Of a stretch of 36,967 bases of DNA, positions 14,585 through 36,957 are shown one piece after another. The DNA comes from a virus. The translations under genes and the position numbers were made by a program. How positions within the stretch are numbered: the stretch's first letter is position 1; every line of letters begins with the position of its first letter. The notes beneath the pieces are model-generated. The model had not been told where the DNA came from, did no database searches, and was given only the letters and a program-made list of their open reading frames with translations. Where the stretch lies: the IMG/VR virus record IMGVR_UViG_3300042555_001886, positions 1-36,967 of that record. The stretch is one strand, 5' to 3'.

Positions 14585-17434
14585 ATGCCTATAATCAAGC
14601 AATTAAATGCTACTAAGTTTCGTAGCTTAAAGTACGGTAATGATACCTCAGACGGAGGTAGCAGTAGGCAACCTTATATGAGGGTTGAATTAAAAGACCT
14701 TGATAAACCAATCAATAGACTTAGACTTACTAAATTTGATGATGGTTTAGTTAGAGGTGGAGCTGTAGGAGCATTAAATGCTGCTGCGGTTGATACACTT
14801 CGTATAGGTAAATTTTTTAAGGATTTACCAAAAGGACCTTTATTCCTAATTAAACAAGTAGGCTTACAGTTATCTAATCCTAGATTAGAATTTAAAAAAG
14901 TTGGTGGTGGTGCTGTAGGTGGTATTGGACCAACACGTCTATACAACTTAGGTATCAATACACTTGCTCAAGTTTCCCTTAATGCATTTGGTGGTCATTT
15001 AGTAAGACATGGTTTATTACCTGTAATGAATGATAATACTAAGTACTTAAGCGTAGTAACTGATAATAACAAATTTAGTGAAGATAACTTAGACTCTCAA
15101 AACAATAGATTAGTTGGTTTGAGAAACAAATTTGATTTAGGAGATGGTGAAGTTGAATATAGTATAACTTTAAAAGATGCTATAGCAACTAATAGACAAA
15201 ACAATAGAGACGGAAGACAAGCTAACAGAGAATTTAATAGAGACGGAAGACAAGCTAACAGAAGTCTCAATAAGATGGGTAGGAAGATTAATAGAGAAGA
15301 TAATAGAGATATAAGAAAATATAATAGAGGTTTTAATAGAGAAAGTAGAAAAATTAATAGACAAAATAATAGACAGGGAAGACAAAATAATAGACTTGTA
15401 AATCAAAGTACAAGAGAGGGAGCTAGAGTTGAAGGTTTTGAATTTACTCGTTCTAAATTTGAACGTACTTCGTATGAACCTACTAACCTTGAACAAACTA
15501 AATTTGAACGTTCTGTATTTCATCGCTCTAGTTTCAAAAGAAATAAAATAAACATAAGCGATTATACTATTGATAATTATCTTGGTGGACCAGGTTCAGT
15601 ATATGGTATAGGAAGAACTATTATCAATAGATATAATTTTACTGAAGATAAAATAAAGATCGATCAGGCTTTTGAAAACGCTAGGATAGAAACAATTAGA
15701 GGAAGTTTATTAGTTAACCCATTAACAGAACAAAGTGCGTTTGCCGATGCTAGTGGTAGTTACATTACAGGGGCAACTGTTGTCCCTTTTATAGATGCAG
15801 ATTGGGTATGGGATGATTGGAATAACGAAGAAGATCAATTTAAAGCACTATCAAGAAAAAAACAACCAGGGAGTTTTTACTATACAGTAGGAAATATAGC
15901 TGAAAGTAAATTACAAAAGGCTATTGGTGATGGAAATATCAATACAAGTCCTCAAGATCCTGATTGGTCTAAGAGCACAATATATGGGTATAAAACTTTT
16001 GGAACAGGACATGTTCCTAAGATAGACCCAACTATGCTTACGTCCCCAGAACAATTTAAAGCAATAAAACGTTCTTTACTTTGGGACTCTGAAAAGAAAA
16101 TAATAAAATTTTATGACGAAGACCCAGAATATATTGGTGGTACAAGAGATATAGTAACATTTTCAAAATCAACCAAAAATGCAGTTGATGGATTAAAGGA
16201 TGCTCAAGTTAAACGAGAAGATTTCACTACAACTGGTAAAACTTTAGAAGAAGCCCAATCAAAAATGTCGGCTTTGACAAACCAGCCTGCTGGTTTAGAT
16301 TATTTTGAAAATGATCCTGGAGGAACTACTTTAAAAGATGTAGGAGTTACAGCAAGTAAAGTAAGAAAGAAAAAAACAGTTAAAGCGTCAATTATAGATG
16401 TTAAGGGATTTGAAAGAGAAAATAAACTAGAAACCATTTACAATAATGGTGAGATGGTATCATCCCCATTAACATCAATTATTCAAGAAACTAGTGGTGA
16501 TGATATTTTTAAAACTGAAGATCTTATCATAAATAGAGACACTAAAAATTTCCGTTATCTTGCTGGTGGTAGAACAATGTCTGCTTTTGACAGATTTGAT
16601 CCAGATATAATGAGTGTACATTTTAACTCTATCGATCCATTCACTGCTACAAATTTAAGCAGTATATGGTTCTCAGCATATATGTCTGGATTTAAGTATG
16701 GTACATCAGCAACTTGGAACCCAGTAAAGTATGTGGGTAGGTCAGAAAGTTTTTATACCTTCACCGAACATAAAAGAGATGTAAGTTTTAATTTACAAAT
16801 TCCATGTTTTAATGAAACTGAATTATTAGAAAACCATTCAAAGTTAAGTGAATTACAATCAGTTTTAGCAGGAAAATATAGTCCTGATAATAGATTAGGA
16901 GGAATAATAACAGCAATAACATTAGGTAGTTACTTAGTGGGAGAACCAGGAATATTAACATCAGTTTCATTTGATATACCTGATACATCTTCTTGGGATT
17001 TGGATTTTAACTTAGCAATGTATTTAAATGCACAATTTAGCTTCATTGTTATTGGCAAAGAATTACCTGAATTTAGAAAAGGCGGGTTCTTCTTTGGCAA
17101 ACCACAACCTAAGTCAGAACCTCCTAAAAAAGATCCTGCTGCTAAAGAAGAGCAGAAACCAAAAACAGATGCTACTAAAGGAGACAGTGAACAGAAAATT
17201 GAAAAGAAAAAAACGGACGACGCTAAGAAAAAAGAAGAAAAACAAACAAAGATAATTGCACCAAAAGCAACATTAACAGATTCAAACGCAGGTGCTAAAA
17301 AGGAAAAACTTAGCACAGCCGTTAAATCAGGGACCTATAAACCAACAACAAATCTAGCAACAACCACTAAAAGTACCTTCCAAGGTTATGGTGGTGGAAG
17401 TTCAGGTGGAGGTGGTGCAAGTGGAGGGTGGTAA
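14585..17434 (+). CDS. Large baseplate/tail-tube-initiator-like protein with Arg/Asn repeats and pentapeptide-like repeats
   Basis: This 949-aa protein has several parts. Residues 1-200 are a Gly/Leu-rich domain. Residues about 203-278 hold 11-residue repeats of the form R-(Q/K)-x-N-R-x-x-N-R-x-G. Residues about 285-325 are pentapeptide-like (FTRSK, FERTS, YEPTN, LEQTK, FERSV, FHRSS, FKRNK). A central region of unknown fold follows. Residues about 680-830 contain WFSAYMSGFKYGTSATWNPV, KYVGRSESFYTFTEHKRDVSF and ELLENHSKLSELQSVL, a pattern I associate with baseplate or tube-cap proteins. The C-terminus is Lys/Glu-rich and then Gly-rich (GGGSSGGGGASGGW). The gene starts 15 bases after its neighbour. 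The baseplate role is inferred from that C-terminal domain and position. Confidence 0.68.
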   Translation: MPIIKQLNATKFRSLKYGNDTSDGGSSRQPYMRVELKDLDKPINRLRLTKFDDGLVRGGAVGALNAAAVDTLRIGKFFKDLPKGPLFLIKQVGLQLSNPRLEFKKVGGGAVGGIGPTRLYNLGINTLAQVSLNAFGGHLVRHGLLPVMNDNTKYLSVVTDNNKFSEDNLDSQNNRLVGLRNKFDLGDGEVEYSITLKDAIATNRQNNRDGRQANREFNRDGRQANRSLNKMGRKINREDNRDIRKYNRGFNRESRKINRQNNRQGRQNNRLVNQSTREGARVEGFEFTRSKFERTSYEPTNLEQTKFERSVFHRSSFKRNKINISDYTIDNYLGGPGSVYGIGRTIINRYNFTEDKIKIDQAFENARIETIRGSLLVNPLTEQSAFADASGSYITGATVVPFIDADWVWDDWNNEEDQFKALSRKKQPGSFYYTVGNIAESKLQKAIGDGNINTSPQDPDWSKSTIYGYKTFGTGHVPKIDPTMLTSPEQFKAIKRSLLWDSEKKIIKFYDEDPEYIGGTRDIVTFSKSTKNAVDGLKDAQVKREDFTTTGKTLEEAQSKMSALTNQPAGLDYFENDPGGTTLKDVGVTASKVRKKKTVKASIIDVKGFERENKLETIYNNGEMVSSPLTSIIQETSGDDIFKTEDLIINRDTKNFRYLAGGRTMSAFDRFDPDIMSVHFNSIDPFTATNLSSIWFSAYMSGFKYGTSATWNPVKYVGRSESFYTFTEHKRDVSFNLQIPCFNETELLENHSKLSELQSVLAGKYSPDNRLGGIITAITLGSYLVGEPGILTSVSFDIPDTSSWDLDFNLAMYLNAQFSFIVIGKELPEFRKGGFFFGKPQPKSEPPKKDPAAKEEQKPKTDATKGDSEQKIEKKKTDDAKKKEEKQTKIIAPKATLTDSNAGAKKEKLSTAVKSGTYKPTTNLATTTKSTFQGYGGGSSGGGGASGGW
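15191..15420 (+). repeat. Degenerate 33-bp (11-residue) Arg/Asn repeats
   Basis: About seven units encode R(Q/K)xNRxxNRxG, with AATAGA and GGAAGACAA recurring. The first copies are nearly identical at DNA level and later ones diverge, as expected from past tandem duplication. Confidence 0.75.
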
Positions 17435-17754: not shown

Positions 17755-20700
17755 ATGTCTATATTTAAAGAATCATTTCCATCGCATATTAAAAAGCAAC
17801 TCTTAAAAAGAGGAGAGGCTATTGTTAGACGTAACTTAACAGACTTAACCTACTATAATGGTAGAAAAGCCTGGTTGAGAATGTCTTCATCAGTTGACGT
17901 TAAAGAGGATGGTGGCTCTTTAGCTAAAAATTATGTTTTATTAGGAGGTGCTTTATATAATGGTAAACTAAGACATGGTGTTGGGAGTGGGCCTGAAAAC
18001 GCATATGCATTACAAACACCAAGCGGACAAACACACAAATATGGTATTAGACCAATGCCTGGTATTACTGGAGTTGATATTAAATCAAAAGGTGCTTACG
18101 GTTCATTAAGAGAAGTAACAATAAATTTTAACTGTTGGGATATTACTCAATTAGAAGATTTAGAATTACTTTACATGAGACCAGGATACTCTGTATTATT
18201 AGAATGGGGATGGATTCCTTACCTTAATAATGATGGGGCTTTAGTATCAACACCTGCAACGTTTGATATATTTGATAGTAATTTAAAAGGAAAAGATTAC
18301 CAAAACGTATTCCAGAAGTTATTCAAGATGGAAGAAGAAGCACAAGGTAATTATGGTGGATTCCTAGGTATTATTAAAAACTATAAATGGTCAGCTAGAC
18401 CAGATGGAGGATATGATTGTAGTACAACTTTAATTTCTATTGGTGAAATGATAGAATCATTAAAGATTAACTATACAGCAGCTAATTTATCACTTACTAC
18501 ATTACAAACTGTAGGATACCTAAAAATGGTAGACTCAGCTAATCCTGATTTAGATGATGATGCTTTAGAATTATTTTATGGACGAAATTTCTTATCAGGA
18601 TTGATATATGAATTATGGGAATCTATAGATTCAAAAAACAATTGTGCAATTTTCACTAAAAAAGATAGCTTTGGAGTAGAATACGATATGCTTGCAATGG
18701 ATATTGAGTTCGAAAATGATACAGAAGATGATGAAGAATTGGGATGGGCTTTCGATAATCAAAAATATATTACATTAGAGTCTTTATGTAGATTGATAAA
18801 TCGTCACTTAACAGTAGGTATAGTAAGTGAAGATGGAAATAAACCTATTATAGGAGTGTCAGTTAGTGATAGAAAATACCCATCTGGTAATAATATAGAT
18901 TTATTAAATGCAACAACTCCTTACTTATTGAGTTTATGTCACCCACTACAAATGTCAGTTGACCCATCAGTATGTTTAATTAGAAACGATGTTTGGGGAG
19001 CTTTTAAATTACCTGAAGAAATAACTACCCCACCTGCCCCATCATCTCCCCCATCAAATACAGGAGACAAAGGAAAACAGGTTGATGCTAATATTACATT
19101 TAATGGAGTTGCTACACCTTGTGAAACAGCAGCCAAAGCAACCTTAGATGCCATCATACCTCAAGTAACTGCTATTAATGGTGATGATACATTCACGATG
19201 GATACTCTTAAAAAGTATTTTAATGCTTGTAGTGCTGCTGGTGTTAACGCAGATAAAGCTGCTGAAGAATTAGCTAGACAATTTGAACTTAATGCAACTG
19301 TCACTCCAGGTGTGTTATACGGTACAAATATAAGTACAAACGGTAATTCAAGCGATAATCTTTTTACCTTCTTAGATGACCAACTTTATGAATCAGAAAT
19401 AAAGGAATGCTCCCCAGCATTATCAAATTTGAAAGGAAAAAATATGGGGATAATACAAGCAAAGATAGATGTAATCACAGCTCAGAAGGCAGCTGCTAAA
19501 AAAGCAGAGGAATTAAAAGAAAAACAAGAAGATGCTGCAGAAGATCTTAGTTGGATGAGCACATTAAAACCATTCTCAGTGTCTGATGCTAATGGAACGG
19601 CAGATCCTGCTTGTAAATCTGGTTTAGGACAAATAGGAAATATATATCTTAATTTAAGATATTTAATGAAATCATGTAAAGATCCTGGATTAGAGGAAAG
19701 TGATAAAACAGGTAAGAATACTATTAATTTATATGATTTTTTAAAGAAAATATTAACGGATATTGCTACAGCAACAGGTAATGTAAATAACTTTGATATT
19801 CATGTTGATCCTATAGATAGTGTAGCTAGAATTATAGATATTAACTTTGTAGACACTCAATCGAAAAAAGACGCCTACAACAATTCATTCACATTCTACT
19901 CAGAAGATGGAACACCAACAGGAAAATATAATGGTTTAAAATCTACAGTAAGAAATTATTCATTAGAATCACAAATATTCTCTGAACAATCTTCTATAGT
20001 AGCAATAGGTGCTCAAACAGGTGGTGGTCAATTAGGTTTAGAAAACGATACTATGGTTGGGTTCAACTATGGTGTAAAAGATCGTCTTAAACCTAAAATA
20101 AATGCCATGAATACAACAGGAACTGATGACAGTGCTTCAGTTCAATTGGAAAATTTATTAACTAACCTCACCCCAATATATGAGTTTATTGGTGAAATGG
20201 CAGGTAATGGAGTATTTACTGAAAGTGATTATGATATATCTAAGGCAAGTAATTATGAGGGCGCTCTTAGAGATGTTATAGCAATTTTTAGAGCTTTATC
20301 TAAAAATCCAATTAAATTTAAAGCAATTATCCCTACAAAATTATCATTAGAAATAGATGGTATATCAAATCTAATCATAGGCCATATGTTTAATATCCAC
20401 CCAGATTTACTTCCTAAAGGATATAAAACTGAAGGTGATACTGAGGCTGGTAGAAGACTAGGATATATTTTAACAGGAATAGGACATACCGTTAGTGATA
20501 ATGGTTGGACCACTAAATTAGAAGGCCAAACAGTTATATTAGAAGAACCAGATGGTGAGGAAAAAAGTTTATTCGATATTACTTTAAGTAAAACTGGAAA
20601 AGTACAAAAAGCTTCCGCTAAAATCACAACAGATGAAAAAGGAAACTTAATTAAAACGGACGTAACATTAAGCCAGGCTCAAATGCAGGAAATCGAACAA

Positions 20701-21189
20701 TGGATTAATTTTGGTGGATTTAAAAAGTTCTATACAAATGGATATTTTAACCCTAATACTCTTTTAGATGCCGCAACTGCTGCTAAATCATGTGGGTTTA
20801 AAATAGCAGTGACATCAGGGATAAGAGGTGGAGAAAATCAAGGATATCATAGAACTGGTTGGGCTCTTGATATATCTGGGTTTGATGGTCTTTACTCAAC
20901 AGCTTCAACAAATACTGGGTTGGAAAAAAACCATGCAAAATATGCAGCAAATGGAGATAAACTTGCTTCTGCTCTCATAAAAATGGGTTACAAGCATTTA
21001 TTTGAATCTGGAAAAGATGGTACATCAGCAGAAGTATATCAAACAAAAACATTTATATGGCGATCAGGAGGTCACTTTAACCATATTCATATGAGTAACT
21101 CATTTGAAGCCCCAGGTTGGAAAAACCCAAATAAAGTAGGAAAGTATGCAGTACAACAAAAGAAATATAATCCAAATAAGTATAAATAA
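17755..21189 (+). CDS. Baseplate hub with C-terminal M15-type peptidoglycan peptidase domain
   Basis: This 1144-aa protein begins with a hub-like region: RPMPGITGVDIKSKGAYGSL, ITINFNC-type strands and RPGYSVLLEWGWIPYL, a pattern seen in gp27-like hubs. The middle (about residues 420-660) is Ala/Lys-rich with helices and probably linkers. The C-terminal domain (about 985-1144) has SGIRGGENQGYHRTGWALDI, giving His1032 and Asp1039, followed by GGHFNHIHMS with His1107, His1110 and His1112. This H-x6-D plus C-terminal HxH layout is that of M15/hedgehog-type peptidases that cut peptidoglycan peptides. It is an analogue of the lysozyme on T4 gp5 that opens the cell wall during ejection. The stop overlaps the next ATG (TAATG). 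Confidence 0.78.
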   Translation: MSIFKESFPSHIKKQLLKRGEAIVRRNLTDLTYYNGRKAWLRMSSSVDVKEDGGSLAKNYVLLGGALYNGKLRHGVGSGPENAYALQTPSGQTHKYGIRPMPGITGVDIKSKGAYGSLREVTINFNCWDITQLEDLELLYMRPGYSVLLEWGWIPYLNNDGALVSTPATFDIFDSNLKGKDYQNVFQKLFKMEEEAQGNYGGFLGIIKNYKWSARPDGGYDCSTTLISIGEMIESLKINYTAANLSLTTLQTVGYLKMVDSANPDLDDDALELFYGRNFLSGLIYELWESIDSKNNCAIFTKKDSFGVEYDMLAMDIEFENDTEDDEELGWAFDNQKYITLESLCRLINRHLTVGIVSEDGNKPIIGVSVSDRKYPSGNNIDLLNATTPYLLSLCHPLQMSVDPSVCLIRNDVWGAFKLPEEITTPPAPSSPPSNTGDKGKQVDANITFNGVATPCETAAKATLDAIIPQVTAINGDDTFTMDTLKKYFNACSAAGVNADKAAEELARQFELNATVTPGVLYGTNISTNGNSSDNLFTFLDDQLYESEIKECSPALSNLKGKNMGIIQAKIDVITAQKAAAKKAEELKEKQEDAAEDLSWMSTLKPFSVSDANGTADPACKSGLGQIGNIYLNLRYLMKSCKDPGLEESDKTGKNTINLYDFLKKILTDIATATGNVNNFDIHVDPIDSVARIIDINFVDTQSKKDAYNNSFTFYSEDGTPTGKYNGLKSTVRNYSLESQIFSEQSSIVAIGAQTGGGQLGLENDTMVGFNYGVKDRLKPKINAMNTTGTDDSASVQLENLLTNLTPIYEFIGEMAGNGVFTESDYDISKASNYEGALRDVIAIFRALSKNPIKFKAIIPTKLSLEIDGISNLIIGHMFNIHPDLLPKGYKTEGDTEAGRRLGYILTGIGHTVSDNGWTTKLEGQTVILEEPDGEEKSLFDITLSKTGKVQKASAKITTDEKGNLIKTDVTLSQAQMQEIEQWINFGGFKKFYTNGYFNPNTLLDAATAAKSCGFKIAVTSGIRGGENQGYHRTGWALDISGFDGLYSTASTNTGLEKNHAKYAANGDKLASALIKMGYKHLFESGKDGTSAEVYQTKTFIWRSGGHFNHIHMSNSFEAPGWKNPNKVGKYAVQQKKYNPNKYK

Positions 21190-21659
21190 TGAGAGCGCCT
21201 AAGAATTTAGTCAAAGTAAAATATACAATGGGGGAAAAATATGTTGATTCTAATTTTAACCCATATACAGGATATTACTGTGAATTACGAGGTAAAGCAT
21301 ATCCTGGGAAAGTATATACTGGTGCTTCAAAACCTTTAAAATTAATATCTAGTTTAAACAAAAGTACTAAAATTAATGGAATAACCTTTAATGTCTCTAG
21401 TACATACGATTCAGAAATAGAATTTGTATTTAGATACTTTGTAAAATACATCAACACTGTCCCAGTGTACATAAAAGAAATAAACGCTGATACTTATAAT
21501 TCTATTAAAGATAATCCTTTATATCAAACTACAGTGTTAAAATTTACAGTATCTGAAAAAGGTTCTCCCTCAAATGGTTTCTTTGATATGAATGAAGTGG
21601 AACAGGCCAATAAGAAAATGTCTGGAATAAAACTTTATCTTCAAGATGAACTTTTTTAA
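21189..21659 (+). CDS. Hypothetical baseplate-operon protein
   Basis: This 156-aa protein reads as mostly beta: YTMGEKYVDSNFNPYTGYYC, GKAYPGKVYTG, YDSEIEFVFRYFVKYI, and a helix at the end (NEVEQANKKMSGIKLYLQDELF). The motif pattern around YTG-YYCELRGKAYPGKVYTG resembles conserved phage proteins of unknown function encoded beside hub genes. It overlaps the hub stop by one base (TAATG) and ends the operon, with a 42-base gap before the polymerase gene. The role is probably baseplate or hub related; this is position-based only. Confidence 0.65.
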   Translation: MRAPKNLVKVKYTMGEKYVDSNFNPYTGYYCELRGKAYPGKVYTGASKPLKLISSLNKSTKINGITFNVSSTYDSEIEFVFRYFVKYINTVPVYIKEINADTYNSIKDNPLYQTTVLKFTVSEKGSPSNGFFDMNEVEQANKKMSGIKLYLQDELF

Positions 21660-21676
21660 GGCAAGATTTTATATTA

Positions 21677-21682
21677 TATTTA
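21677..21682 (+). promoter_or_regulatory. Possible promoter (TATTTA) before the polymerase gene
   Basis: The first six bases match the late motif (TATTTA) but the last two differ (GG). It lies 19 bases before the ATG at 21702. It may be a divergent or middle-class element. Confidence 0.3.
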
Positions 21683-21701
21683 GGGCCACAAAAAAAAGGT
21701 T

Positions 21702-22988
21702 ATGTTTTATATTATTGAGAAATCATCTCAACTATCACAATTATCATTCGAGGATTGTTTCGTTAGGTTTATTCCTAATAGTAACAGTTTTCATCCTGCA
21801 CTTACTGAGTTAAGTCTAATTTATGTTAGACCTGTTCATAGTAAGAAGGGATACATACTGTGTTTAAATCATAACGAATCATTATCATTATCCAAAGATA
21901 AAGTATTTGATTGGTTAGATGATCTAGGTAAAATATGGGTATTAGATAAAAAACAAGCATTACATTGGTACCCAAATTCAGATAAATTATTTGATGTTAA
22001 TTTTATAGAGCATGTTGACATAAAGGCGTTAGATAATGCCTGTATAAGCTACTACTACAGCTTACATGGTGCGTTGTCTAACGTCAACTGTTTAATTCCT
22101 ATTAGCAAACATTATGAAATGTGTGAGGCTGTATATGAATTAGCATGGCCTATTATTAAACAATATTCATTAAGCGACACAACGTTTCAATTTAATAATT
22201 TTCGCACGTCAAATGTGTTTTATAATATTGAAAAAAACGGCATTAAGGTCGATAAAAACTGCTTTATTGATTATTATCGAGGTAAGTTGCACCACCCAGA
22301 ATTCAATTTAAATCGCAGTAAAATATACACTCAATATAATTTATATACAACAACATCACGCCCATCTAATACATTTAACAGCGTGAATTTCGCCGCATTG
22401 CATAAAGATGATGGCGAACGCATGTGTTATAGACCGGAAAACGACAAATTTATTGAAATTGACTTCCAGGGTTATCACCCACGATTAATTGGTGAGATGA
22501 TTGGATTTGATTTTCCAAAAGATAAAAATACATACGAGTATTTAGGTTATATATTAGGTGTATCACAACAAGAAGCAAAAGAATTAACATTCAAGCAATT
22601 GTATGGTGGTGTTTGGTCTGAATATCAGTCAAAGCCATTTTTTGAGAAAGTACTTGCATACACAGATGATATGTGGGATACGTACCAATATGGAAAATCG
22701 TTCAAGACGCAGAATAAAATATTTATACCCGACGAAAGCATAACAAAAACAAAATTATTTAATTATGTTGTGCAGAGTAATGAAACATCAACCAATGTTG
22801 AATTATTAGGGCTGGTATTTAATTTATTAGAAGGTAAAAAAACGAAATTAGTATTGTATACTTATGATGCGTTTTTATTCGATTATAGTGAAGAAGATAA
22901 AGGTTTAATTCAACAGATAGTTGATGTATTAGAATATCCTGTAACCATTAAACAAGGCCAATCGTATCACGGTTTGGAGAAATTATAA
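21702..22988 (+). CDS. Compact family A-type DNA polymerase
   Basis: This 428-aa protein carries the three family A palm motifs. Motif A is IDFQGYHPRLI with Asp254. Motif B is KELTFKQLYGG, where Lys293, Phe297 and Tyr301 align with K758, F762 and Y766 of E. coli Pol I. Motif C is YTYDAFLFD with Asp389. It also has a TTTSRPSNTFNSVNFAAL segment equivalent to the TGRLSS-type finger/palm strand. The usual steric-gate glutamate of motif A is replaced by His259, and the motif C Glu by Ala390. No 3'-5' exonuclease DxE motif is seen in the first 180 residues, and the protein is short. It may be the replicative polymerase or a specialised one. The flap nuclease is a separate gene at 25.4 kb. Confidence 0.68.
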   Translation: MFYIIEKSSQLSQLSFEDCFVRFIPNSNSFHPALTELSLIYVRPVHSKKGYILCLNHNESLSLSKDKVFDWLDDLGKIWVLDKKQALHWYPNSDKLFDVNFIEHVDIKALDNACISYYYSLHGALSNVNCLIPISKHYEMCEAVYELAWPIIKQYSLSDTTFQFNNFRTSNVFYNIEKNGIKVDKNCFIDYYRGKLHHPEFNLNRSKIYTQYNLYTTTSRPSNTFNSVNFAALHKDDGERMCYRPENDKFIEIDFQGYHPRLIGEMIGFDFPKDKNTYEYLGYILGVSQQEAKELTFKQLYGGVWSEYQSKPFFEKVLAYTDDMWDTYQYGKSFKTQNKIFIPDESITKTKLFNYVVQSNETSTNVELLGLVFNLLEGKKTKLVLYTYDAFLFDYSEEDKGLIQQIVDVLEYPVTIKQGQSYHGLEKL

Positions 22989-22997: not shown

Positions 22998-23414
22998 ATG
23001 GAACAACTAAACGAATTAGACTTGAACAAATTATTCTGTACATTTACAACTCCACTGGATTTGGAAAATACAGTTAACACAATCAATCGCCGTTACGCTA
23101 TATTATTCAATAAGATATTTATTCTTGAATCTCCACAAAGCGAAGAATTGATGTGTACTTACAATATTGACTCGGGCAATGTACAAGATGCACCGATGGC
23201 CAATACTATCTTATTACATAGAAAGAAAGAATCAAACACATTATATACCATTAATGCTTTAAATACTTTAATTAAGGATTTGAATGGTGGTATATTAGAT
23301 AAGAGTTTCGTTGTTAACTGGAACGATTACAAAAATTGCATTTTACTAACAGACGGACCTAGCCTACGCAGGTTGGATACGGCTATTCATAAAATAATAG
23401 ATTTTAACAAGTAA
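22998..23414 (+). CDS. Hypothetical protein between polymerase and gp32-like genes
   Basis: This 138-aa soluble protein begins MEQLNELDLNKLFCTFTTP, has an alpha/beta pattern (RRYAILFNKIFILESPQSEE, then MANTILLHRKKESNTLY and a helix NALNTLIKDLNGG), and ends in GPSLRRLDTAIHKIIDFNK. No catalytic motif is visible and I do not recognise a family. In T4-like genomes the neighbourhood of gene 32 holds replication accessory proteins, so a helper role is possible but not shown. The stop codon lies in a 7-bp hairpin, and a 98-base structured leader to the ssDNA-binding gene follows. Confidence 0.66.
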   Translation: MEQLNELDLNKLFCTFTTPLDLENTVNTINRRYAILFNKIFILESPQSEELMCTYNIDSGNVQDAPMANTILLHRKKESNTLYTINALNTLIKDLNGGILDKSFVVNWNDYKNCILLTDGPSLRRLDTAIHKIIDFNK

Positions 23415-23512: not shown

Positions 23513-24340
23513 ATGGACTTATCGTTCGTCAAGCAAAAGCTTGAAGCAAACGCCAACAGAGGCGCAGGTCGTGAAAAAATCGACTACACAAAGATCTTCT
23601 GGAAACCTAAAGCAGGTAAATACCAGATTAGAATCGTCCCAAACAAATTTAGAAAAGAGTGGCCATTAAGAGAAATCCAAATGCATTATGGATTTTCTAA
23701 GGGACCAATTTTGGCTTTATCTAACTGGGGTGAAGAGGATCCAATTACAGGTTTCGCTAAGGGATTAAGAAAATCAGCTGACAAAGATGATTGGACTTTA
23801 GCCAACAAAATTTCTCCTAAAACACGTTATTTTGCTCCAGTAATCGTTCGCGACGAATTGAGTGCAGGTGTTCGTTTATGGGAAGTAGGTAAATTAGTAA
23901 ATGACCAATTAATGGGTATCGCTAGCGATGAAGATTATGGTGATTTTACTGACATTACTGATGGACGTGACTTTACAGTTGAAGCTGTAGAAGACGTTAT
24001 TGCTGGTAGAAAAGGTATCAAATGTACTTTACGTATTAAACCAAAAACATCTCCAATTTCTGATGATCCTGCTGTAGTAGAGAAAGCATTAGAAGAACAA
24101 CCAGATATCTTAGCAATCAACCGTAAGTATACTTACGATCAATTGAAAGATGTATTACAAAAATGGTTGAGTCCTGAAGATGAAGCATCAACTTCAGAAG
24201 CAACTCCAACTGTAGCATCAACAGATGATGAGGAAGATGATTTTATTAAAGAAATCAATGCTCCAATTCAACCTTACAGTTTAGATGTAAAACCAAAAGA
24301 AACGGCATCTGACAAATTTGATTCACTATTTAACGACTAA
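23513..24340 (+). CDS. gp32: gp32-like single-stranded DNA-binding protein
   Basis: This 275-aa protein matches the T4 gp32 plan. An N-terminal region begins SFVKQKLEANANRGAG. An OB-fold core of about residues 25-200 has WKPKAGKYQIRIVPNKFRKEWP and VRDELSAGVRLWEVGKLV. A linker follows, then an acidic tail (TDDEEDDFIKEI) ending KFDSLFND, which resembles the protein-interaction tip of SSB proteins. It lacks the Cys/His zinc site of T4 gp32, as do several phage homologues. It coats ssDNA at forks and recruits helicase loader and recombinase. It is followed by uvsX two bases after its stop, matching their cooperation. The long leader with tandem hairpins hints at self-regulation. Confidence 0.85.
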   Translation: MDLSFVKQKLEANANRGAGREKIDYTKIFWKPKAGKYQIRIVPNKFRKEWPLREIQMHYGFSKGPILALSNWGEEDPITGFAKGLRKSADKDDWTLANKISPKTRYFAPVIVRDELSAGVRLWEVGKLVNDQLMGIASDEDYGDFTDITDGRDFTVEAVEDVIAGRKGIKCTLRIKPKTSPISDDPAVVEKALEEQPDILAINRKYTYDQLKDVLQKWLSPEDEASTSEATPTVASTDDEEDDFIKEINAPIQPYSLDVKPKETASDKFDSLFND

Positions 24341-24342: not shown

Positions 24343-25443
24343 ATGGCTAAAAGTAAAGACAGTTTAACGTCGGTTGTATCCGAATCGTTAAAGAAATCCT
24401 TTGATATTAATGCATATAAGAAATCTAAATTCTTAGATGAAACTACAAAGTTTAAAGAGCAAAAATGGATTCCATTTTCGCCTGCAATTCAATCTGCATT
24501 ATCTATTCCTGGGATCCCTATGGGGCATGTCGCTATAGCTAGAGGAGGTTCTGATACTGGTAAAACTACTCTAATGATTGAGACTGCAGTAGCGGCTCAA
24601 AAGATGGGTATTTTACCAGTATTCATTATTACTGAGATGAAGTGGGATTTCGCCCATGCTCAAACAATGGGACTAGAATTAGATGCTGTTCCTGATGAAG
24701 AAACTGGTGAAGTAATTAACTACAAAGGTTTCTTCTTATATGTAGATAGATCATCGCTTAATACAATTGAAGATGTATCTGCTTTTATAGCTGATACTCT
24801 AAATGATCAGGCAAAAGGTAAATTACCTTATGATCTATTATTCCTATGGGATTCAGTAGGTTCTATTCCATGTGAAATGAGTGTTAAACAAGGTAATAAC
24901 AACCCAATGTGGAATGCAGGTGCTATGGCTACACAGTTTGGTAATTTTATCAATCAACAATTTCCACTTTCACGTAAAGAAAAATATCCTTATACAAATA
25001 CCTTCTTTGTTATTAACAAAACAGGTGTACAACCAGCTTTAACACCAATGTCTCAACCAAAGATGACAAATAAAGGTGGTAATGCAATGTATTGGGATGC
25101 TTCAATCGTAATCACATTTGGTAATGTTACTAATAGTGGTACTTCAAAGATTAAAGCAGTTAAAAACGGAAAGAATGTTGAATTTGCGAAGCGTACTAAG
25201 ATAGCAATTGATAAAATTCATGCTGACTGTGGTGTAGCAACCTCATCTACTGTAATTGCAACTCCTCACGGGTTTATTCCTGATGAAGATACTGCAATTA
25301 AAGCATACAAAAAGCAATACGCAAACCAGTGGTTTGAAGGAGTAACAAATGTTGATGAATTACAAATCATAGAAGACAATAGTGAATGGGATGAAAGTAG
25401 TAAAATTTCACCTACAATTGAAATAGATAACAATGCAGAATAA
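24343..25443 (+). CDS. uvsX: UvsX/RecA-like recombinase
   Basis: This 366-aa recombinase has a P-loop GGSDTGKT at residues 68-75, a Walker B-like DLLFLWDSVGS strand, a MATQFGNFINQQFPLSRKEK helix, and a mobile L2-like region (TFFVINKTGVQPAL). The order and length match phage T4 UvsX (391 aa) and RecA. It forms filaments on ssDNA, exchanges strands and supports recombination-dependent replication. It lies two bases after the ssDNA-binding gene and overlaps the flap nuclease ATG by 11 bases, so it is part of a compact replication operon. I see no anomaly. Confidence 0.93.
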   Translation: MAKSKDSLTSVVSESLKKSFDINAYKKSKFLDETTKFKEQKWIPFSPAIQSALSIPGIPMGHVAIARGGSDTGKTTLMIETAVAAQKMGILPVFIITEMKWDFAHAQTMGLELDAVPDEETGEVINYKGFFLYVDRSSLNTIEDVSAFIADTLNDQAKGKLPYDLLFLWDSVGSIPCEMSVKQGNNNPMWNAGAMATQFGNFINQQFPLSRKEKYPYTNTFFVINKTGVQPALTPMSQPKMTNKGGNAMYWDASIVITFGNVTNSGTSKIKAVKNGKNVEFAKRTKIAIDKIHADCGVATSSTVIATPHGFIPDEDTAIKAYKKQYANQWFEGVTNVDELQIIEDNSEWDESSKISPTIEIDNNAE

Positions 25444-26458
25444 ATACTTTGAACTTCTTTCAAGTATTCAACCTGACACTCGTACATCACTAGATTCGAT
25501 TTTAATAATAGACGGCTTAAATACTTTTTTAAGAGCGTTTACTATGATAAACCACATAAATCCAAATGGCCACCACATTGGTGGCCTAACTGGATTTTTA
25601 AAGTCAGTAGGTTATGCAATTAAAATGCTTAACCCAACTAAAGTAGTAATTGTATTTGATGGAGTTGGTGGTTCGAATGCTAGAAGGAACTTATACCCAG
25701 AATATAAGGCAAATCGTCACGTTAATCGTATGACGAACTACTCAATTTTCTCTTCAAAGGAAGAAGAAACAGAGAGTATAAACAATCAGATGGCAAGATT
25801 AATTCAGTATCTTAAATGCCTACCGATTACTGTTATTAGTATTGATGGTTTAGAAGCAGATGATATTATTGGTTATTTAACTAATAAGTTTCAAGTTTAT
25901 GATGAAACTAGAAGTGTAACTATTATGTCTGCTGATAAAGACTTCTTACAGCTAATATCACCTAAAGTACAAGTATATTCTCCTGTTAAAAAGAAAATAT
26001 ATAAACCAAAGGATGTATTGGAGGAATTTGGGGTTAGTAGTTATAATTTCCTTAACTATAAAATCCTATTAGGAGATAATTCAGATAATGTGCCTGGGAT
26101 TACAGGTTTAGGACCTAAAAAGTTAACTAAATTATTTCCAGAATTAGCATCAGATAACCCAGTAACATTAGATGAAATTATTGAGAGATCTGCAGATAAA
26201 ATAGAAGAGAATAAATTATATTTCTCTGTAGTAGAAAGAAGACACCAATTAGCAATTAATTATCAATTGATGTCTTTGAATGGAAGTTTCTTATCACCGG
26301 AAAACAAACAGTTGGTAAAAGACGCATTTAATAATTCGTATGAGTTAAATAAGTATATCTTTCATCAAATATATGTAAATGATAAGTTAGGAGAATCAAT
26401 TCCGAATGTAGATAGTTGGTTACAAGAAACATTTGGTTATCTAAATTCTCTAAATTAA
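25433..26458 (+). CDS. 5'-3' exonuclease / flap endonuclease (RNase H-like, PIN/FEN)
   Basis: This 341-aa protein carries the FEN/5' nuclease series: ILIIDGLNTFLRAF near residue 25, VVIVFDGVGGSNARRNLYP (metal Asp), SIDGLEADDIIGYL and SADKDFLQLIS (metal-binding acids), and a helix-3-turn-helix LGDNSDNVPGITGLGPKKL (DNA binding). Size is close to T4 RNase H (305 aa). It removes RNA primers and flaps on the lagging strand, a job often done by the N-terminus of Pol I, which is a separate short polymerase here. Its start overlaps the end of uvsX, indicating translational coupling. A perfect 8-bp hairpin lies near codon 46-52. Confidence 0.9.
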   Translation: MQNKYFELLSSIQPDTRTSLDSILIIDGLNTFLRAFTMINHINPNGHHIGGLTGFLKSVGYAIKMLNPTKVVIVFDGVGGSNARRNLYPEYKANRHVNRMTNYSIFSSKEEETESINNQMARLIQYLKCLPITVISIDGLEADDIIGYLTNKFQVYDETRSVTIMSADKDFLQLISPKVQVYSPVKKKIYKPKDVLEEFGVSSYNFLNYKILLGDNSDNVPGITGLGPKKLTKLFPELASDNPVTLDEIIERSADKIEENKLYFSVVERRHQLAINYQLMSLNGSFLSPENKQLVKDAFNNSYELNKYIFHQIYVNDKLGESIPNVDSWLQETFGYLNSLN

Positions 26459-26474: not shown

Positions 26475-27857
26475 ATGACAACATTAAGCAAATTAAATCA
26501 ATATGGCCCGGGTTTCCAAACCAAAGTAATTGGAGCACTATTAACACAGAAAAACTTCTTAGTTAATGTATCCGATTCACTTGAAAAGGAATACTTTGAG
26601 AATCAGGCTAATCAATGGATTATAAAAGAGGTACAACAATATTTCTCCAAGTACCATACAGTTCCTACAATGGAGGTGTTATCAACTGAAGTAAAAAAGA
26701 TTGATAACGACGTTTTAAAAATCGCTATTACTGAAGGATTAAGAGAAGCCTATAAAGAATCACAATCAAATGATTTGGAATGGGTGGAAAGCGAATTTAC
26801 TAATTTCTGTAAAAACCAACAAGTAAAGAAAGCAATTATGACATCAGTCGATTTGCTTGGTATGGGTGATTATGATAGTATTAAAACACTAATGAATAAT
26901 GCCTTGAAAGCTGGTGAAGATAAAAATATTGGTCATGAATATGATAAAGATATTGAGTCAAGATACAGAATGGATGATAGAAACGCAGTACCATTTCCTT
27001 GGAAAGTATTTAATGATTTGACTCAAGGTGGTATGGGTAAAGGTGATTTAGTATTAGTATTTGGTAATCCTGGGGGTGGTAAATCATGGGCTGTAATTGA
27101 TATGGGTGCTTATGCTGCTGCATTAGGTTATAATGTAGTGCACTATTCACTTGAATTAGCTGAAGGATATGTAGGTAAAAGATATGATGCTGTGTTTACA
27201 GGGCTACCTGTTGATACATTAGATAAACATAGAGCCAAAGTTGAAGAAACAATTGGTAAAGTAAAGGGTAAAGTTGTAATTAAAGAATACCCACCTAAAC
27301 GAGCATCATTCGACACTATCCAGGCTCACTTACAACAATTAGAACATCAACACGACTTTAAACCAGATCTAATTATTATCGATTATCTCGATTATGTTAA
27401 GAGTTCATCTCGTAATAGAAGTGGAGAGCGTAAAGAGGAAATTGATGATGTTTATGTTGGAGCTAAAGCATTGGCCAAAGAATTAGGAATACCAGTTATA
27501 TCGCCTTCACAAGCAAATAGAGGTGCTGCTAAGAGTAATATCATTGAAGGTGATAATGCAGCAGGTTCATATGAAAAAATTATGATTGGTGATATTATTT
27601 TATCTTTAGCTCGTGGGAGAAAGGATAAAGTAAACGGAACAGGACGTTGGCACGTTATGAAAAATAGATATGGTGCTGATGGATTAACATTTGGTTCCAA
27701 AATAGATACGTCAAACGGAAAAATAGATATATACGAAACGCCATTAGAAGATGATGATGACGATGACTCTAAACCTGTAAACCAATACAGTAGTGTCAAC
27801 AATGATGATAGAGACTATCTTCAACAGAAGTTTTTTGAACTTAGTAAAGGCCAATAG
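26475..27857 (+). CDS. Replicative DNA helicase, DnaB/gp41 family
   Basis: This 460-aa protein has an N-terminal helical domain (GALLTQKNFLVNVSDSLEK) and a RecA-like ATPase domain: Walker A GNPGGGKS at residues 197-204, HYSLELAEGYVGKRYDAV, Walker B DLIIIDYLDYV, SPSQANRGAAKSNIIEG and ILSLARGRKDKVNGTGRWHVMKNRYG (arginine finger region). This is the DnaB/T4 gp41 pattern and length (T4 gp41 is 475 aa). It forms a hexameric ring at the fork and unwinds DNA 5' to 3'. An acidic C-terminal stretch (DDDDDDSK) may contact a loader or primase. It ends the replication run, 37 bases before the thioredoxin. Confidence 0.92.
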   Translation: MTTLSKLNQYGPGFQTKVIGALLTQKNFLVNVSDSLEKEYFENQANQWIIKEVQQYFSKYHTVPTMEVLSTEVKKIDNDVLKIAITEGLREAYKESQSNDLEWVESEFTNFCKNQQVKKAIMTSVDLLGMGDYDSIKTLMNNALKAGEDKNIGHEYDKDIESRYRMDDRNAVPFPWKVFNDLTQGGMGKGDLVLVFGNPGGGKSWAVIDMGAYAAALGYNVVHYSLELAEGYVGKRYDAVFTGLPVDTLDKHRAKVEETIGKVKGKVVIKEYPPKRASFDTIQAHLQQLEHQHDFKPDLIIIDYLDYVKSSSRNRSGERKEEIDDVYVGAKALAKELGIPVISPSQANRGAAKSNIIEGDNAAGSYEKIMIGDIILSLARGRKDKVNGTGRWHVMKNRYGADGLTFGSKIDTSNGKIDIYETPLEDDDDDDSKPVNQYSSVNNDDRDYLQQKFFELSKGQ

Positions 27858-30678: not shown

Positions 30679-31140
30679 ATGGCGAAATTTCAATCAACAA
30701 AACTATTCGACGGTTTTAGTACAGTCTTCCGTCAATGGAAAGCAGAAGGTACCCACTGTAGATTCCTTCATGGTTATGGTGTTTCATTTAGAGTATGGTT
30801 TGAAGGTGAATTAGACGAACGTAATTGGGTTTGGGATTTTGGTGGCATGAAACGTGCTAAAGGTACTATTGATGGTAAAAATCCTAAAGCATGGATGGAT
30901 TATATGTTTGATCATACTACAATTGTAGCAGAAGATGATCCTGCATTAGGTGGTTTTAAAACAATGAATGATTTAGGAATTATCCAATTAAGAATAATCC
31001 CAGCAACTGGAGCAGAACAATTTTCAAAATATATATTTGAGAAACTAAATACATTTGTTCAAGAAGAAACTAGTGGTAGAGTTAGTGTTGTGAGAGTAGA
31101 GTTTATGGAACATAGCAAAAACACAGCAATATACGAATAA
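30679..31140 (+). CDS. queD: QueD-like 6-carboxytetrahydropterin synthase
   Basis: This 153-aa protein is the expected length for QueD, which turns 7,8-dihydroneopterin triphosphate into 6-carboxy-5,6,7,8-tetrahydropterin. The family core is visible: HCRFLHGYGVSFRVWFEG (Cys and the HGH region), WVWDFGGMK, YMFDHTTIVAEDDP and an end VRVEFMEHSKNTAIY. Canonical zinc ligands are altered: the first His region reads FRQW without His and the second His of HGH is Tyr. It lies one base before a small ORF and is followed within 2 kb by a DpdA-like gene and queC, supporting a deazaguanine role. The zinc change means activity needs testing, or a different substrate. Confidence 0.78.
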   Translation: MAKFQSTKLFDGFSTVFRQWKAEGTHCRFLHGYGVSFRVWFEGELDERNWVWDFGGMKRAKGTIDGKNPKAWMDYMFDHTTIVAEDDPALGGFKTMNDLGIIQLRIIPATGAEQFSKYIFEKLNTFVQEETSGRVSVVRVEFMEHSKNTAIYE

Positions 31141-31141
31141 T

Positions 31142-31366
31142 ATGGACGCGCTATACAATTATATTTTTTGGTTCAATCATCATGAGGATATGTGGTATGC
31201 TATAAGCAGAGATGAACAGTTGGCATTCTTTAATGGTAATAGAAAAGATACAAATCATTTTAAATCTAGAGATATAAATACCTTAACTGAATTACTTAAC
31301 AAACCATCAATACTATCCAAACTAAATGAGCAAGAAAACAACAAAACAGCGCAACCGGCAGATTAG
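31142..31366 (+). CDS. Hypothetical protein in the deazaguanine region
   Basis: This 74-aa protein begins MDALYNYIFWFNHHEDMWYAI, with an aromatic-rich opening followed by a polar helical part, KSRDINTLTELLNKPSILSKL. The pattern of a short beta unit with FWFNHHEDMWYAISRDEQLAFFNGNR resembles small conserved phage proteins, but I cannot name a family. It starts at a TAATATG junction behind queD and its end overlaps the next gene by 41 bases in another frame. Its function is unknown. Confidence 0.6.
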   Translation: MDALYNYIFWFNHHEDMWYAISRDEQLAFFNGNRKDTNHFKSRDINTLTELLNKPSILSKLNEQENNKTAQPAD

Positions 31367-31607
31367 AGCCAACCATGAAGCACATCACCCATACCATTCA
31401 GAAGGTATATGGGAAGAATTAAATTTAGAACATCACAGTTACTGGGATATAGACATGCTCGAAAAAATAAATAAACCTATTAATAAGAAAATCAAATTAT
31501 GGGAAGGCAAGTATGCTGAAGCCTCTAGTTGGTTAGGAAAATGGTATTGTCAAATTCAAATAGATAAATTTAAAAGTAAATTACACCACTATGAAAATAA
31601 GCCATGA
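31326..31607 (+). CDS. Hypothetical basic/aromatic protein
   Basis: This 93-aa protein opens with a basic segment (SKKTTKQRNRQIRANHEAHH) followed by a Trp/His-rich part (PYHSEGIWEELNLEHHSYW) and a helical end (KLWEGKYAEASSWLGKWYC and KFKSKLHHY). The starting segment overlaps the previous gene by 41 bases and its 3' end overlaps the DpdA-like ATG by 17 bases, so the true start could be later. Histidines and tryptophans suggest a binding protein, but no domain is recognised. A role beside DpdA is conceivable because of the coupling, and is inference. Confidence 0.55.
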   Translation: MSKKTTKQRNRQIRANHEAHHPYHSEGIWEELNLEHHSYWDIDMLEKINKPINKKIKLWEGKYAEASSWLGKWYCQIQIDKFKSKLHHYENKP

Positions 31608-32376
31608 GTTGCCTTTAGCACTAATGCACAATGCTTATAAATGGAATGATTATGATTATTGTCTACCCCATTTAATTGATCAGTATGATCAATATAGAAT
31701 ATTCTTTCAAAAATCCCGTTTAGATAAACGTTTCATTATTATGGATAATGGATTATTTGAAGGAGTAACACACACAACAGAGGATTTATTAGAAAAAATT
31801 AATCTAGTTCGTCCTAATATATTCATTGTACCTGATGCTTGGAATGATGCTACAACTACTATTCGCAATGCTAAGAGTTGGATGATTAATTATAAAGAAG
31901 GTTTACCTGAAGGTGTTAATTTAATGGCAGTATGTCAAGGTAATGATATAGGTGAATTAATTACTACATACCAAACATTAGTTGATTTGGGTTATACTCA
32001 TATTGCCTTTAACCATTCAAGTATCGCATATCAGAAAGATTATGATGGTTTAGATCATTTAAAAGCATCAATGTATGGTAGAATGGAATTTATTAGACGT
32101 TTAGTTGCGTCTGGTACTATTAGAAAATCCCATTACCATCATTTACTAGGATGTTCATTACCACAAGAATTCATGTCATATAAAGACTGGACATTTATTA
32201 AATCAGTAGATACGTCTAATCCTATTTTAGTTGGAGCTGAAGGTAAAAGATACACTGATAGCGGTTTAACATGGAAACCAAAAGAAAAGCTTGAGCATTA
32301 TTTTGAAAAAGATTTGAGCGGTCAACTTGAAGATATTACATTTAATGTCAACATGTTTAAATCATTCATTAAATAA
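31591..32376 (+). CDS. dpdA: DpdA-like deazaguanine DNA transglycosylase (TGT superfamily)
   Basis: This 261-aa protein resembles the phage DpdA branch of the TGT superfamily, which swaps guanine for a 7-deazaguanine. FIIMDNGLFEG carries Asp52 and FIVPDAWND carries Asp82. LMAVCQGND follows a central strand, HHLLGCSLPQEF fits the TGT-type LGxG/P region near residue 185, and SVDTSNP (Asp207) is the second acid. Unlike bacterial TGT it lacks the C-terminal Cys/His zinc motif, as expected for DpdA-like proteins. It lies among queD, queC, queE and folE, which make its likely substrate preQ0. The exact target (DNA rather than tRNA) is inferred from context. Confidence 0.75.
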   Translation: MKISHELPLALMHNAYKWNDYDYCLPHLIDQYDQYRIFFQKSRLDKRFIIMDNGLFEGVTHTTEDLLEKINLVRPNIFIVPDAWNDATTTIRNAKSWMINYKEGLPEGVNLMAVCQGNDIGELITTYQTLVDLGYTHIAFNHSSIAYQKDYDGLDHLKASMYGRMEFIRRLVASGTIRKSHYHHLLGCSLPQEFMSYKDWTFIKSVDTSNPILVGAEGKRYTDSGLTWKPKEKLEHYFEKDLSGQLEDITFNVNMFKSFIK

Positions 32377-32382
32377 AAAGTT

Positions 32383-32580
32383 ATGGTAGAATTTATTTCG
32401 CTTTATGATTATTTAGGTAAAGCAGCAGGTAAGGAATTAGGTAGACAAGTAGCGGATTATGCTTTAGCTTCTTGTGTAGCTTATAAAATAAGACAGGTAT
32501 CAAATCCAAAGTATGCAGGTCCTATTATGTTGTATCCAAAATCATTTTTAGAGTTATATTTTAAAGCATACAACGCTTAA
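32383..32580 (+). CDS. Small hypothetical protein
   Basis: This 65-aa protein has a helical middle (LGKAAGKELGRQVADYALASCVAYKIRQV) and an ending PIMLYPKSFLELYFKAYNA. It carries no recognisable motif and only one cysteine. It lies 6 bases after the DpdA-like gene with a TTATGG start and ends within a hairpin near the queC leader. The N-terminus reads like a soluble small protein; function is unknown. Confidence 0.6.
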   Translation: MVEFISLYDYLGKAAGKELGRQVADYALASCVAYKIRQVSNPKYAGPIMLYPKSFLELYFKAYNA

Positions 32581-32595
32581 ACGGGAGTAAGCGTT
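32572..32595 (+). terminator. Hairpin at the stop before queC
   Basis: AACGCTTA (32572-32579) pairs perfectly with TAAGCGTT (32588-32595) around an eight-base loop, AACGGGAG. The stop codon lies in the left arm. No U run follows, so it may be a processing or regulatory hairpin rather than a terminator. Confidence 0.4.
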
Positions 32596-32632
32596 TAATA
32601 AGTAAATACGATCCCAAAATAAATCATTTTAA

Positions 32633-33496
32633 ATGAAACAAGCAGTTTTATCATTATCAGGTGGAATGGACAGTAGTTCATTATTGTTACACCTATTAGC
32701 TAACGGCTATGAAGTAACAGCATTAGGTTTTGACTACGGTCAAAAACACAAAGTAGAATTAGAACGCGCAGGTGCATTGGTACAGTATCTTAACCATGTA
32801 GCTCCTATTAAAAGTGGAATAATTTTACCTAGAATAAACCACCAAATTATTAAATTAGACGGTTTACAAAATCTACTAAATTCAGCTTTAGTAACAGGTG
32901 GTGCTGATGTACCAGAAGGGCACTACGAACAGGACAACATGAAAGAAACAGTTGTACCTAACCGAAATAAAATATTTAGTTCATTAATTCAAGCAGTAGC
33001 ACTTTCACTTGCAACTAAAGATTTAGGTGATGGTCAATTGGAAAAAAGAAATGTAGCAATTGCAATGGGTATTCATGCTGGTGACCATGCTATTTATCCT
33101 GATTGCAGACAAGAGTTCCGTGATGTTGACTTTGAAGCATTTAAAGTTGGTAACTGGGATTCTGAATTAGTATACCATTATACCCCTTATTTAGATGTAA
33201 CTAAATTTGAAATCTTAGAAGATGGTTTAGCATCATGTAATAAATTAGGTTTAGATTTTGATGAAGTGTATAAGCGTACAAACACATCTTATAAACCAAT
33301 CAAATTAACAGAGGATATCTGGTTGTCTGATTATAAATCAGCAGCATCAGTTGAACGTGTAGAAGCGTTTATTAAATTAGGTCGCCCTGATCCTGTACAG
33401 TATGGTGAACAACTACCAGAGGGTGGTATTCGCACTGTGAGATGGGAAGAAGTAAAAGAATCAGTACAAGCAGTATTAGATTCACATAAATCGTAA
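32633..33496 (+). CDS. queC: QueC-like 7-cyano-7-deazaguanine (preQ0) synthase
   Basis: This 287-aa protein has the QueC ATP-pyrophosphatase P-loop LSGGMDSSSLLLH, the FDYGQKHKVEL segment, VPNRNKIFSSLIQAVAL, AIAMGIHAGDH and IYPDCRQEFRD, all characteristic. It converts 7-carboxy-7-deazaguanine plus ammonia and ATP to preQ0. The region that normally holds four zinc cysteines (CY...CGxCxSC) reads TNTSYKP and SDYKSAASVERVEAF, so all four are lost, while the flanking VER-x-EAF...DPVQY remains. Length is slightly above the usual 230 aa. The gene lies after the hairpin at 32572 and 19 bases before a basic HTH gene. Confidence 0.82.
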   Translation: MKQAVLSLSGGMDSSSLLLHLLANGYEVTALGFDYGQKHKVELERAGALVQYLNHVAPIKSGIILPRINHQIIKLDGLQNLLNSALVTGGADVPEGHYEQDNMKETVVPNRNKIFSSLIQAVALSLATKDLGDGQLEKRNVAIAMGIHAGDHAIYPDCRQEFRDVDFEAFKVGNWDSELVYHYTPYLDVTKFEILEDGLASCNKLGLDFDEVYKRTNTSYKPIKLTEDIWLSDYKSAASVERVEAFIKLGRPDPVQYGEQLPEGGIRTVRWEEVKESVQAVLDSHKS

Positions 33497-33515
33497 TCAA
33501 AAAACAAGTATAGTT

Positions 33516-33752
33516 ATGAGTTATCAAACAAGTGTTCGTGCAAACTATTTAAACCGCACAGCTAAATTATCATTCTTCACTCACCGTCAACGCACTGGTG
33601 ATTTGACAAGATTGTCAGAAGAAACAGGCTACTCAGTTAGCCACTTATCAAACGTAACAAGTTTGAGACGTAGAGTAAATAACGAGATTGCAAACGCAAT
33701 GTACAATTTGACTCGTCGTCGTGTAAAAAATTCTGAGTACGCTCAAGCGTAG
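33516..33752 (+). CDS. Small HTH-type DNA-binding protein
   Basis: This 78-aa protein is strongly basic with a helix-turn-helix-like segment, DLTRLSEETGYSVSHLSNVTSLRRRVNNEI. Residues LSEETGYS-x-SHLSNV follow the typical turn of HTH domains, followed by an Arg-rich helix, TRRRVKNSEY. It probably binds DNA as a small transcription regulator or nucleoid-type protein. It has a leader AAACAAGTATAGTTATG and is followed by a strong terminator. The DNA target and role are unknown, but placement between queC and queE leaves open regulation of the cassette. Confidence 0.68.
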   Translation: MSYQTSVRANYLNRTAKLSFFTHRQRTGDLTRLSEETGYSVSHLSNVTSLRRRVNNEIANAMYNLTRRRVKNSEYAQA

Positions 33753-33762
33753 TTAGTAACCC

Positions 33763-33801
33763 AACATCTCCCTCGTCTATGGATAGGGGAGATGTTTTTT
33801 T
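33763..33801 (+). terminator. Strong intrinsic terminator after the HTH gene
   Basis: AACATCTCCC (33763-33772) pairs with GGGAGATGTT (33787-33796) around a 14-base loop, followed by a run of Ts to 33801. It separates queC/HTH from the queE unit. Confidence 0.85.
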
Positions 33802-33812
33802 ATTTTAAAATT

Positions 33813-34777: not shown

Positions 34778-34778
34778 T

Positions 34779-34874: not shown

Positions 34875-34875
34875 C

Positions 34876-35004: not shown

Positions 35005-35014
35005 AATAAATTAT

Positions 35015-35248: not shown

Positions 35249-35251
35249 AAT

Positions 35252-35884: not shown

Positions 35885-35885
35885 T

Positions 35886-36429: not shown

Positions 36430-36957
36430 ATGTTAAACGCAAAACAAATTGTAGACGAGGGTCTACTACTATTAGAAAACACTAAGGGCAAACCAGCCCA
36501 AGTAGGATACGATATTACTTTAAAAGAAGTACAAAAAATCGGTCTTAAAATAGGGGATAACACTTATCGTCAAGGGAAAATTGGTAAAGTATTAAAGGAT
36601 AAAACCGAACTTACTGAATATACTCCTCAAAACACAATAATGTTAGACGGTGTTGAAGGTTGGTTATTATATGATGGTGTTTATGATATTACATTTAATG
36701 AAGGTTGTAAAATACCTGAAAACCGGGTAGCATTCATTAAACAACGTTCATCATTATACCGCAATGGTGCAATCATTAATAGCCCTGTATTTGACCCAGG
36801 CTTTGAAACACAAAACATGGGTACATTATTGTATGTTCACGAAACTATATTCATTGAAAAAGATGCTCGTGTAGCACAAATATACTTCCATGAATGTAAT
36901 GGAGCTGAACTATACAATGGTCAGTGGCAAAACGATAAACAAAGAAGTTCATTATAA
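36430..36957 (+). CDS. dUTPase/dCTP deaminase-family protein
   Basis: This 175-aa protein has family motifs in order: VGYDITLKEV (motif 1), IKQRSSLYRNGAIINSP (motif 2, RSSLxRxG), VFDPGFETQNMGTLLYV (motif 3) and ARVAQIYFHEC (motif 4). dCTP deaminase has Glu in a GFEGxITLEL context; here that stretch reads NMGTLLYV, so the deaminase acid is not evident, and dUTPase or a catalytically altered homologue is favoured. It would keep dUTP low or feed dTMP for phage DNA. It is complete, with TAA at 36955, and lies 13 bases after the small membrane gene. Confidence 0.78.
   Translation: MLNAKQIVDEGLLLLENTKGKPAQVGYDITLKEVQKIGLKIGDNTYRQGKIGKVLKDKTELTEYTPQNTIMLDGVEGWLLYDGVYDITFNEGCKIPENRVAFIKQRSSLYRNGAIINSPVFDPGFETQNMGTLLYVHETIFIEKDARVAQIYFHECNGAELYNGQWQNDKQRSSL

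Follow-up and report, generated by a model that had tools for sequence, protein, structure and literature searches.

The 36,967-nt stretch of phage DNA analysed here (the window) contains a single polymerase gene, and the question it raises is whether its product replicates the phage or serves it in another way. The original prediction described a short polymerase of family A whose motifs A and C are unusual, and singled out DFQGYHPR (D254, H259), K293/F297/Y301 and Y388-D389-A390. All these residues were confirmed in the ORF, and the description itself was borne out by profile-profile alignment and by an AlphaFold2 model (see below). The coordinates of this gene and of other features of the window are collected in Table 1.

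Table 1 Features of the window discussed in the text
Feature	Position	Strand	Remarks
Protein with five collagen-repeat stretches	1796-4267		823 aa; C-terminal S74 intramolecular chaperone domain
Structural-region protein	14585-17434		949 aa; Asn/Arg-rich repeat run; no Pfam match
Protein with M15-type-peptidase-like C-terminus	17755-21189		1144 aa; whole protein without Pfam match
divPolA1, short divergent family A polymerase	21702..22988	+	428 aa, ATG to stop
divPolA1 parts	residues ~1-125; 180-220; ~205-428		exonuclease-like domain without acidic residues; thumb stub; palm and fingers
divPolA1 motifs	residues 254-261; 289-302; 358; 388-390		motif A; motif B; Q358; motif C
138-aa protein adjoining divPolA1	22998..23414	+	predicted alpha/beta fold
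Single-strand DNA binding protein (SSB)	23513..24340	+	phrog_1192; same operon
RecA/UvsX-like recombinase	24343..25443	+	phrog_97, PF00154
5'-3' exonuclease	25433..26458	+	matches N-terminal domain of DNA polymerase I; PF02739 and PF01367; NF004397, E 3e-48
DnaB-like replicative helicase	26475..27857	+	phrog_19, PF03796
7-deazaguanine cluster	30679-36269		QueD, DpdA-like, QueC, QueE, FolE, phosphoribosyltransferase-like gene
dCTP deaminase-like gene	36430..36957	+	last in window

Family membership

The window protein belongs to divPolA1, a kind of divergent family A phage polymerase reported from 14 immuto-group phages (PMC11348598, Virol J 2024;21:200). As defined there, divPolA1 has intact palm residues, a truncated thumb and an inactivated exonuclease, and its phages encode a regular DNAP besides, from family A, B or C; the gene is followed downstream by replication genes, in genomes of 155-190 kb (PMC11348598). 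We took Flavobacterium phage immuto as the exemplar for comparison. A tblastn search aligned the window protein with immuto gp001 at 33% identity over 97% coverage (E 7e-63), and the two are alike in this near full-length homology, in the palm Asp residues, truncated thumb and dead exonuclease, in the presence of a regular DNAP and in the downstream replication genes. The regular DNAP was judged from relatives and from a contig that matches the end of the window, since the window stops before that gene. As to genome size, the window is a 37-kb fragment, and its largest close relatives are contigs of 132-179 kb. The two proteins differ in their low identity and in their position in a tree of 62 divPolA1 members, which had been proposed as a check: the window protein falls in a clade apart from immuto, with PolB as the regular DNAP.

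In the literature searched, the name divPolA1 was used only by PMC11348598 and its preprint. To the known description our analysis adds an invariant histidine at the steric gate, a free Arg754 position (E. coli Pol I numbering), an Ala/Ser motif C and an invariant small companion gene; the terms 'steric', 'histidine' and 'glutam' are absent from the text of PMC11348598, whose figures may show the residue, and that text also says nothing of the small neighbour as a constant companion. The range of the family is also widened, to Microcystis phage Mel-JY01, to LR756508 and to hundreds of IMG/VR contigs, with at least 582 divPolA1-related stretches in a profile-guided scan of IMG/VR. LR756508 is a jumbo phage of 484 kb that bears the divPolA1 operon, beyond the published size range. 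To look for a possible cellular origin, 84,980 cellular genomes were searched; the 7 matches all lay in metagenome-assembled contigs, and part of this material may be binned phage DNA.

A parallel is divPolA2 of the barbaviruses (Vibrio phage 1.063.O, AUR84708; PMC11348598), likewise a second, short PolA that stands beside a PolB and lacks both the exonuclease and a normal thumb. It differs from divPolA1 in that its apparent motif A retains the Glu (YDFKAFE) and its gene neighbourhood is variable, and AUR84708 showed no significant similarity to the divPolA1 profile (0.3 bits).

Catalytic residues and predicted fold

Taken alone, the window protein matched no Pfam, PHROG or NCBIfam model and gave nothing useful against PDB sequences. 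PF00476 was matched by 3 of 17 divPolA1 relatives (best E 4.6e-11), and the sole match of the family profile among PDB sequences was a DNA polymerase I, a weak one (E 0.007). Profile-profile alignment (hhalign) of the family with regular PolAs, namely Klenow, T7 gp5 and three phage PolAs, gave E = 9.4e-7 and brought every core motif into register, a result that at the level of sequence profiles is well beyond chance. The aligned pairs were R220=R668, D254=D705, H259=E710, K293=K758, F297=F762, Y301=Y766, Q358=Q849 and D389=D882. Thus, divPolA1 has the motif order and the palm/fingers architecture of E. coli Pol I/Klenow and of regular phage PolAs (T7 gp5, immuto gp199), and with the exception of the E710 position these pairs are identities common to both groups. 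It departs from Pol I in having His for Glu710, Tyr for His881 and Ala or Ser for Glu883, in the loss of Arg754, and in that its 5'-3' exonuclease is encoded by a separate gene. Motif B, said in the original prediction to align exactly, does so at K293, F297 and Y301; it does not at the O-helix Arg754 position, which is Q289 in the window protein and free to vary across the family.

Conservation was counted over 116 distinct rows among the IMG/VR matches listed. Among these listed matches, D254, H259, K293, F297 and Y301 were invariant (114/114 distinct relatives), as was D389 (109/109), and motif C was always YD(A/S), with Ala after D389 in 90 and Ser in 19. Both metal-binding Asp residues and the equivalents of K758, F762, Y766, Q849 and R668 were invariant in more than 100 distinct members, down to ~28% identity; E361 of divPolA1 is invariant too. 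The dN/dS values against close relatives were 0.11-0.18. Given the invariance of H259 and YD(A/S) and this purifying selection, the non-canonical residues are fixed family traits and not damage.

The literature describes the E710 position as the steric gate for rNTPs, occupied by a strictly conserved Glu. Thermus phage Tt72 PolA (PMC9324360), an active enzyme, resembles divPolA1 in the non-acidic residue (Ser) that follows its motif C Asp, at the E883 position; its S616A mutant retains 76% of activity and its E389A mutant, altered at the E710 position, 35%, against 4% when either catalytic Asp is changed to Ala (PMC9324360). Loss of the E710 and E883 acids need not kill the enzyme. Tt72 PolA differs from divPolA1 in being full-length, in keeping the steric-gate Glu and in having an active proofreading domain. 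As judged from sequence, divPolA1 is very probably catalytically active; with Arg754 absent, His at E710 and Ala/Ser at E883, its activity could be weak or specialised.

Structure prediction, also proposed as a check, gave an AlphaFold2 model (pLDDT 93.3, pTM 0.90) that matches polymerases of the Klenow/Taq type. Among its best structural matches in the PDB are apicoplast Pol, KlenTaq and Klenow (E 1e-15 to 1e-13); human Pol nu is matched as well. The TM-score with Klenow reached 0.72-0.73 by query length, more than the 248 palm/fingers residues out of 428 could give alone, so that the N-terminal domain, taken within the whole-chain match, would be superposed too. The thumb was measured from G180, the Gly of the 'erNGi.vD' segment, to R220: it has 40 residues, as compared with 124 between the matching Gly and Arg of E. 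coli Pol I, and only two short helices (185-192 and 199-202). In the model it is thus reduced to a stub. The N-terminal 125 residues show in the model the strand order expected for a DnaQ-type exonuclease, with FIPNSN where the DxE motif (DTE) was expected and is absent. This domain looks like a 3'-5' exonuclease without its acidic residues; the original prediction was right that a proofreading exonuclease is absent, and its view of the N-terminus as unassigned has to be given up. Altogether, divPolA1 is an exonuclease-dead, nearly thumbless polymerase that keeps a two-metal palm and most nucleotide-binding residues of the fingers, and in which the canonical features of a replicative, proofreading PolA (gate Glu, HDE, full thumb, active 3'-5' exonuclease) were not found.

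Neighbouring genes and the regular replicase

The gene for divPolA1 heads an operon in which SSB follows downstream in 69/70 loci, RecA in 57/58, the 5'-3' exonuclease in 49/50 and DnaB in 42/42, i.e., in 98-100% of the loci with enough flank. Under a strict distance rule the 138-aa protein lies beside divPolA1 in 100/101 loci; in the remaining one, L075, the two overlap. In the phage collection the six records that contain it are the six that contain divPolA1. It is more conserved than the polymerase, with 40-93% identity across families and an invariant HRKK..N..Y..N.LN core; its predicted structure (pLDDT 89.5) had no PDB match at E <= 0.001. Immuto, Mel-JY01 and LR756508 show the same operon order, interrupted by small insertions. 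In the latter two, blastp detected no RecA, although one is annotated in Mel-JY01. One name in the Mel-JY01 annotation is misleading: the stand-alone 5'-3' exonuclease (20793-21833) goes under DNA polymerase I (TIGR00593), and the real short PolA (15398-16624) is given as hypothetical.

A regular polymerase accompanies divPolA1 in the relatives. Immuto has a 777-aa PolA (gp199) in addition to gp001, and Mel-JY01 has a PolB in addition to its short protein. Of 14 long relatives that were searched, 10 encode a full-length polymerase, eight a PolB (858-938 aa) and two a full PolA (775-787 aa); these 10 take in every one of the seven that exceed 100 kb. No full-length polymerase was found in the other four, records of 54-77 kb that may be fragments. 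The relatives' PolB presents three intact exonuclease motifs (FDIECE, NSEYFDVP and YNIRDVE). In pieces running from 29472 to the window's last base, one contig, L162, shares 82-91% DNA identity with the window (84% in the final piece), and the PolB ORF of L162 opens about 30 bases beyond the point that matches the window's end. Homologues of the dCTP deaminase-like gene in L147 and L162 are likewise followed, about 40 bases on, by the regular PolB. Hence a proofreading PolB very likely replicates the phage of the window, and its gene would lie just beyond the window's end; the polymerases of these long relatives make divPolA1 very unlikely as the replicase. The bearing on replicative fidelity that the original prediction had suggested is not supported, given these separate full-length enzymes with their exonuclease motifs, and an intact exonuclease encoded in trans, which it had named as evidence against itself, is what the relatives point to. 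The altered rNTP discrimination that it had also raised may exist; H259 is invariant in the family.

The same prediction had raised modified dNTPs. The window does carry a 7-deazaguanine cluster, and modification of the phage DNA is probable. The cluster's DpdA-like protein, which had no Pfam or NCBIfam match, is 34% identical to immuto gp206 (annotated DpdA). The DpdA pathway is post-replicative and swaps bases in finished DNA. Modified dNTPs are therefore not implied by the genes of the window, and the link of divPolA1 to them is weak.

Upstream of divPolA1, the 823-aa protein with collagen repeats is probably a tail fibre, to judge from its domains. The repeat run of the 949-aa protein reads NRDGRQANREFNRDGRQANR..., and the C-terminus of the 1144-aa protein YHRTGWALDISG...HFNHIHMS.

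Probable role of divPolA1

That the role of divPolA1 is accessory, and not that of main replicase, we hold to be highly probable, and its overall reading as an accessory gap-filling or repair polymerase with a separate replicase to be likely. It would be a second family A polymerase beside the bulk replicase PolB (PolA in sister clades), making short, distributive DNA patches together with SSB, RecA/UvsX, the Pol I-type 5'-3' exonuclease and DnaB. Because the operon's exonuclease is of the Pol I type, a Pol I split between two genes is a natural, if putative, model, and such an enzyme would fill gaps after primer removal or extend recombination intermediates. A 5'-3' exonuclease beside helicase and SSB is common in phage replication modules and is, alone, no pointer to gap filling. 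The choice of gap filling or nick translation over translesion or recombination synthesis is tentative, and we give it somewhat less than an even chance.

An enzyme that extends RecA/UvsX D-loops or performs low-fidelity bypass, like Pol nu and Pol theta, would fit the presence of RecA/UvsX in nearly all the loci, the absence of proofreading, the low processivity suggested by the thumb stub and the structural match with Pol nu; DnaB and the Pol I-type exonuclease in the same operon argue against it, and such a role seems unlikely, if well worth keeping in mind. It is very improbable that divPolA1 is the main polymerase, altered in fidelity or in rNTP discrimination: it does head a conserved replication operon and is the sole polymerase in the window, and PMC11348598 found the conserved context to be that of divPolA1 and not of the regular DNAP and suggested that divPolA1 participates in replication, but a full-length PolB or PolA bearing exonuclease motifs is present in relatives, and divPolA1 itself has no proofreading and little thumb.

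The invariant H259 at the rNTP steric-gate position might instead indicate a primer-making or ribonucleotide-tolerant enzyme that starts or extends RNA/DNA primers with a minimal thumb. A thumb is absent from many primases. However, T7 RNA polymerase has Gly at the gate, by contrast with which His is bulky, and the DNA-type pocket keeps F297 and Y301 without exception, which makes this reading quite improbable. A DnaG-like primase, present in each of the five searched relatives that are >=160 kb long, further weakens a primase role. A catalytically dead fold acting as a structural or regulatory part of the replisome would agree with the replacement of R754, E710 and E883, the loss of the exonuclease acids and of most of the thumb, and the highly conserved small neighbour; the invariant metal Asp residues and equivalents of K758, F762, Y766, Q849 and R668 are hard to explain without catalysis, so we regard it as improbable.

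Many phages (at least 582 IMG/VR stretches) carry divPolA1 as a second polymerase. The invariant His and the constant small neighbour offer concrete residues and a candidate partner for study. It is a bold and rather improbable proposal that divPolA1 and the 138-aa protein form a new two-protein accessory polymerase, in which the His gate and the near-absent thumb would change substrate choice (e.g., toward RNA-primed or ribonucleotide-containing ends); if true, this polymerase would be distinct from every characterised family A enzyme.
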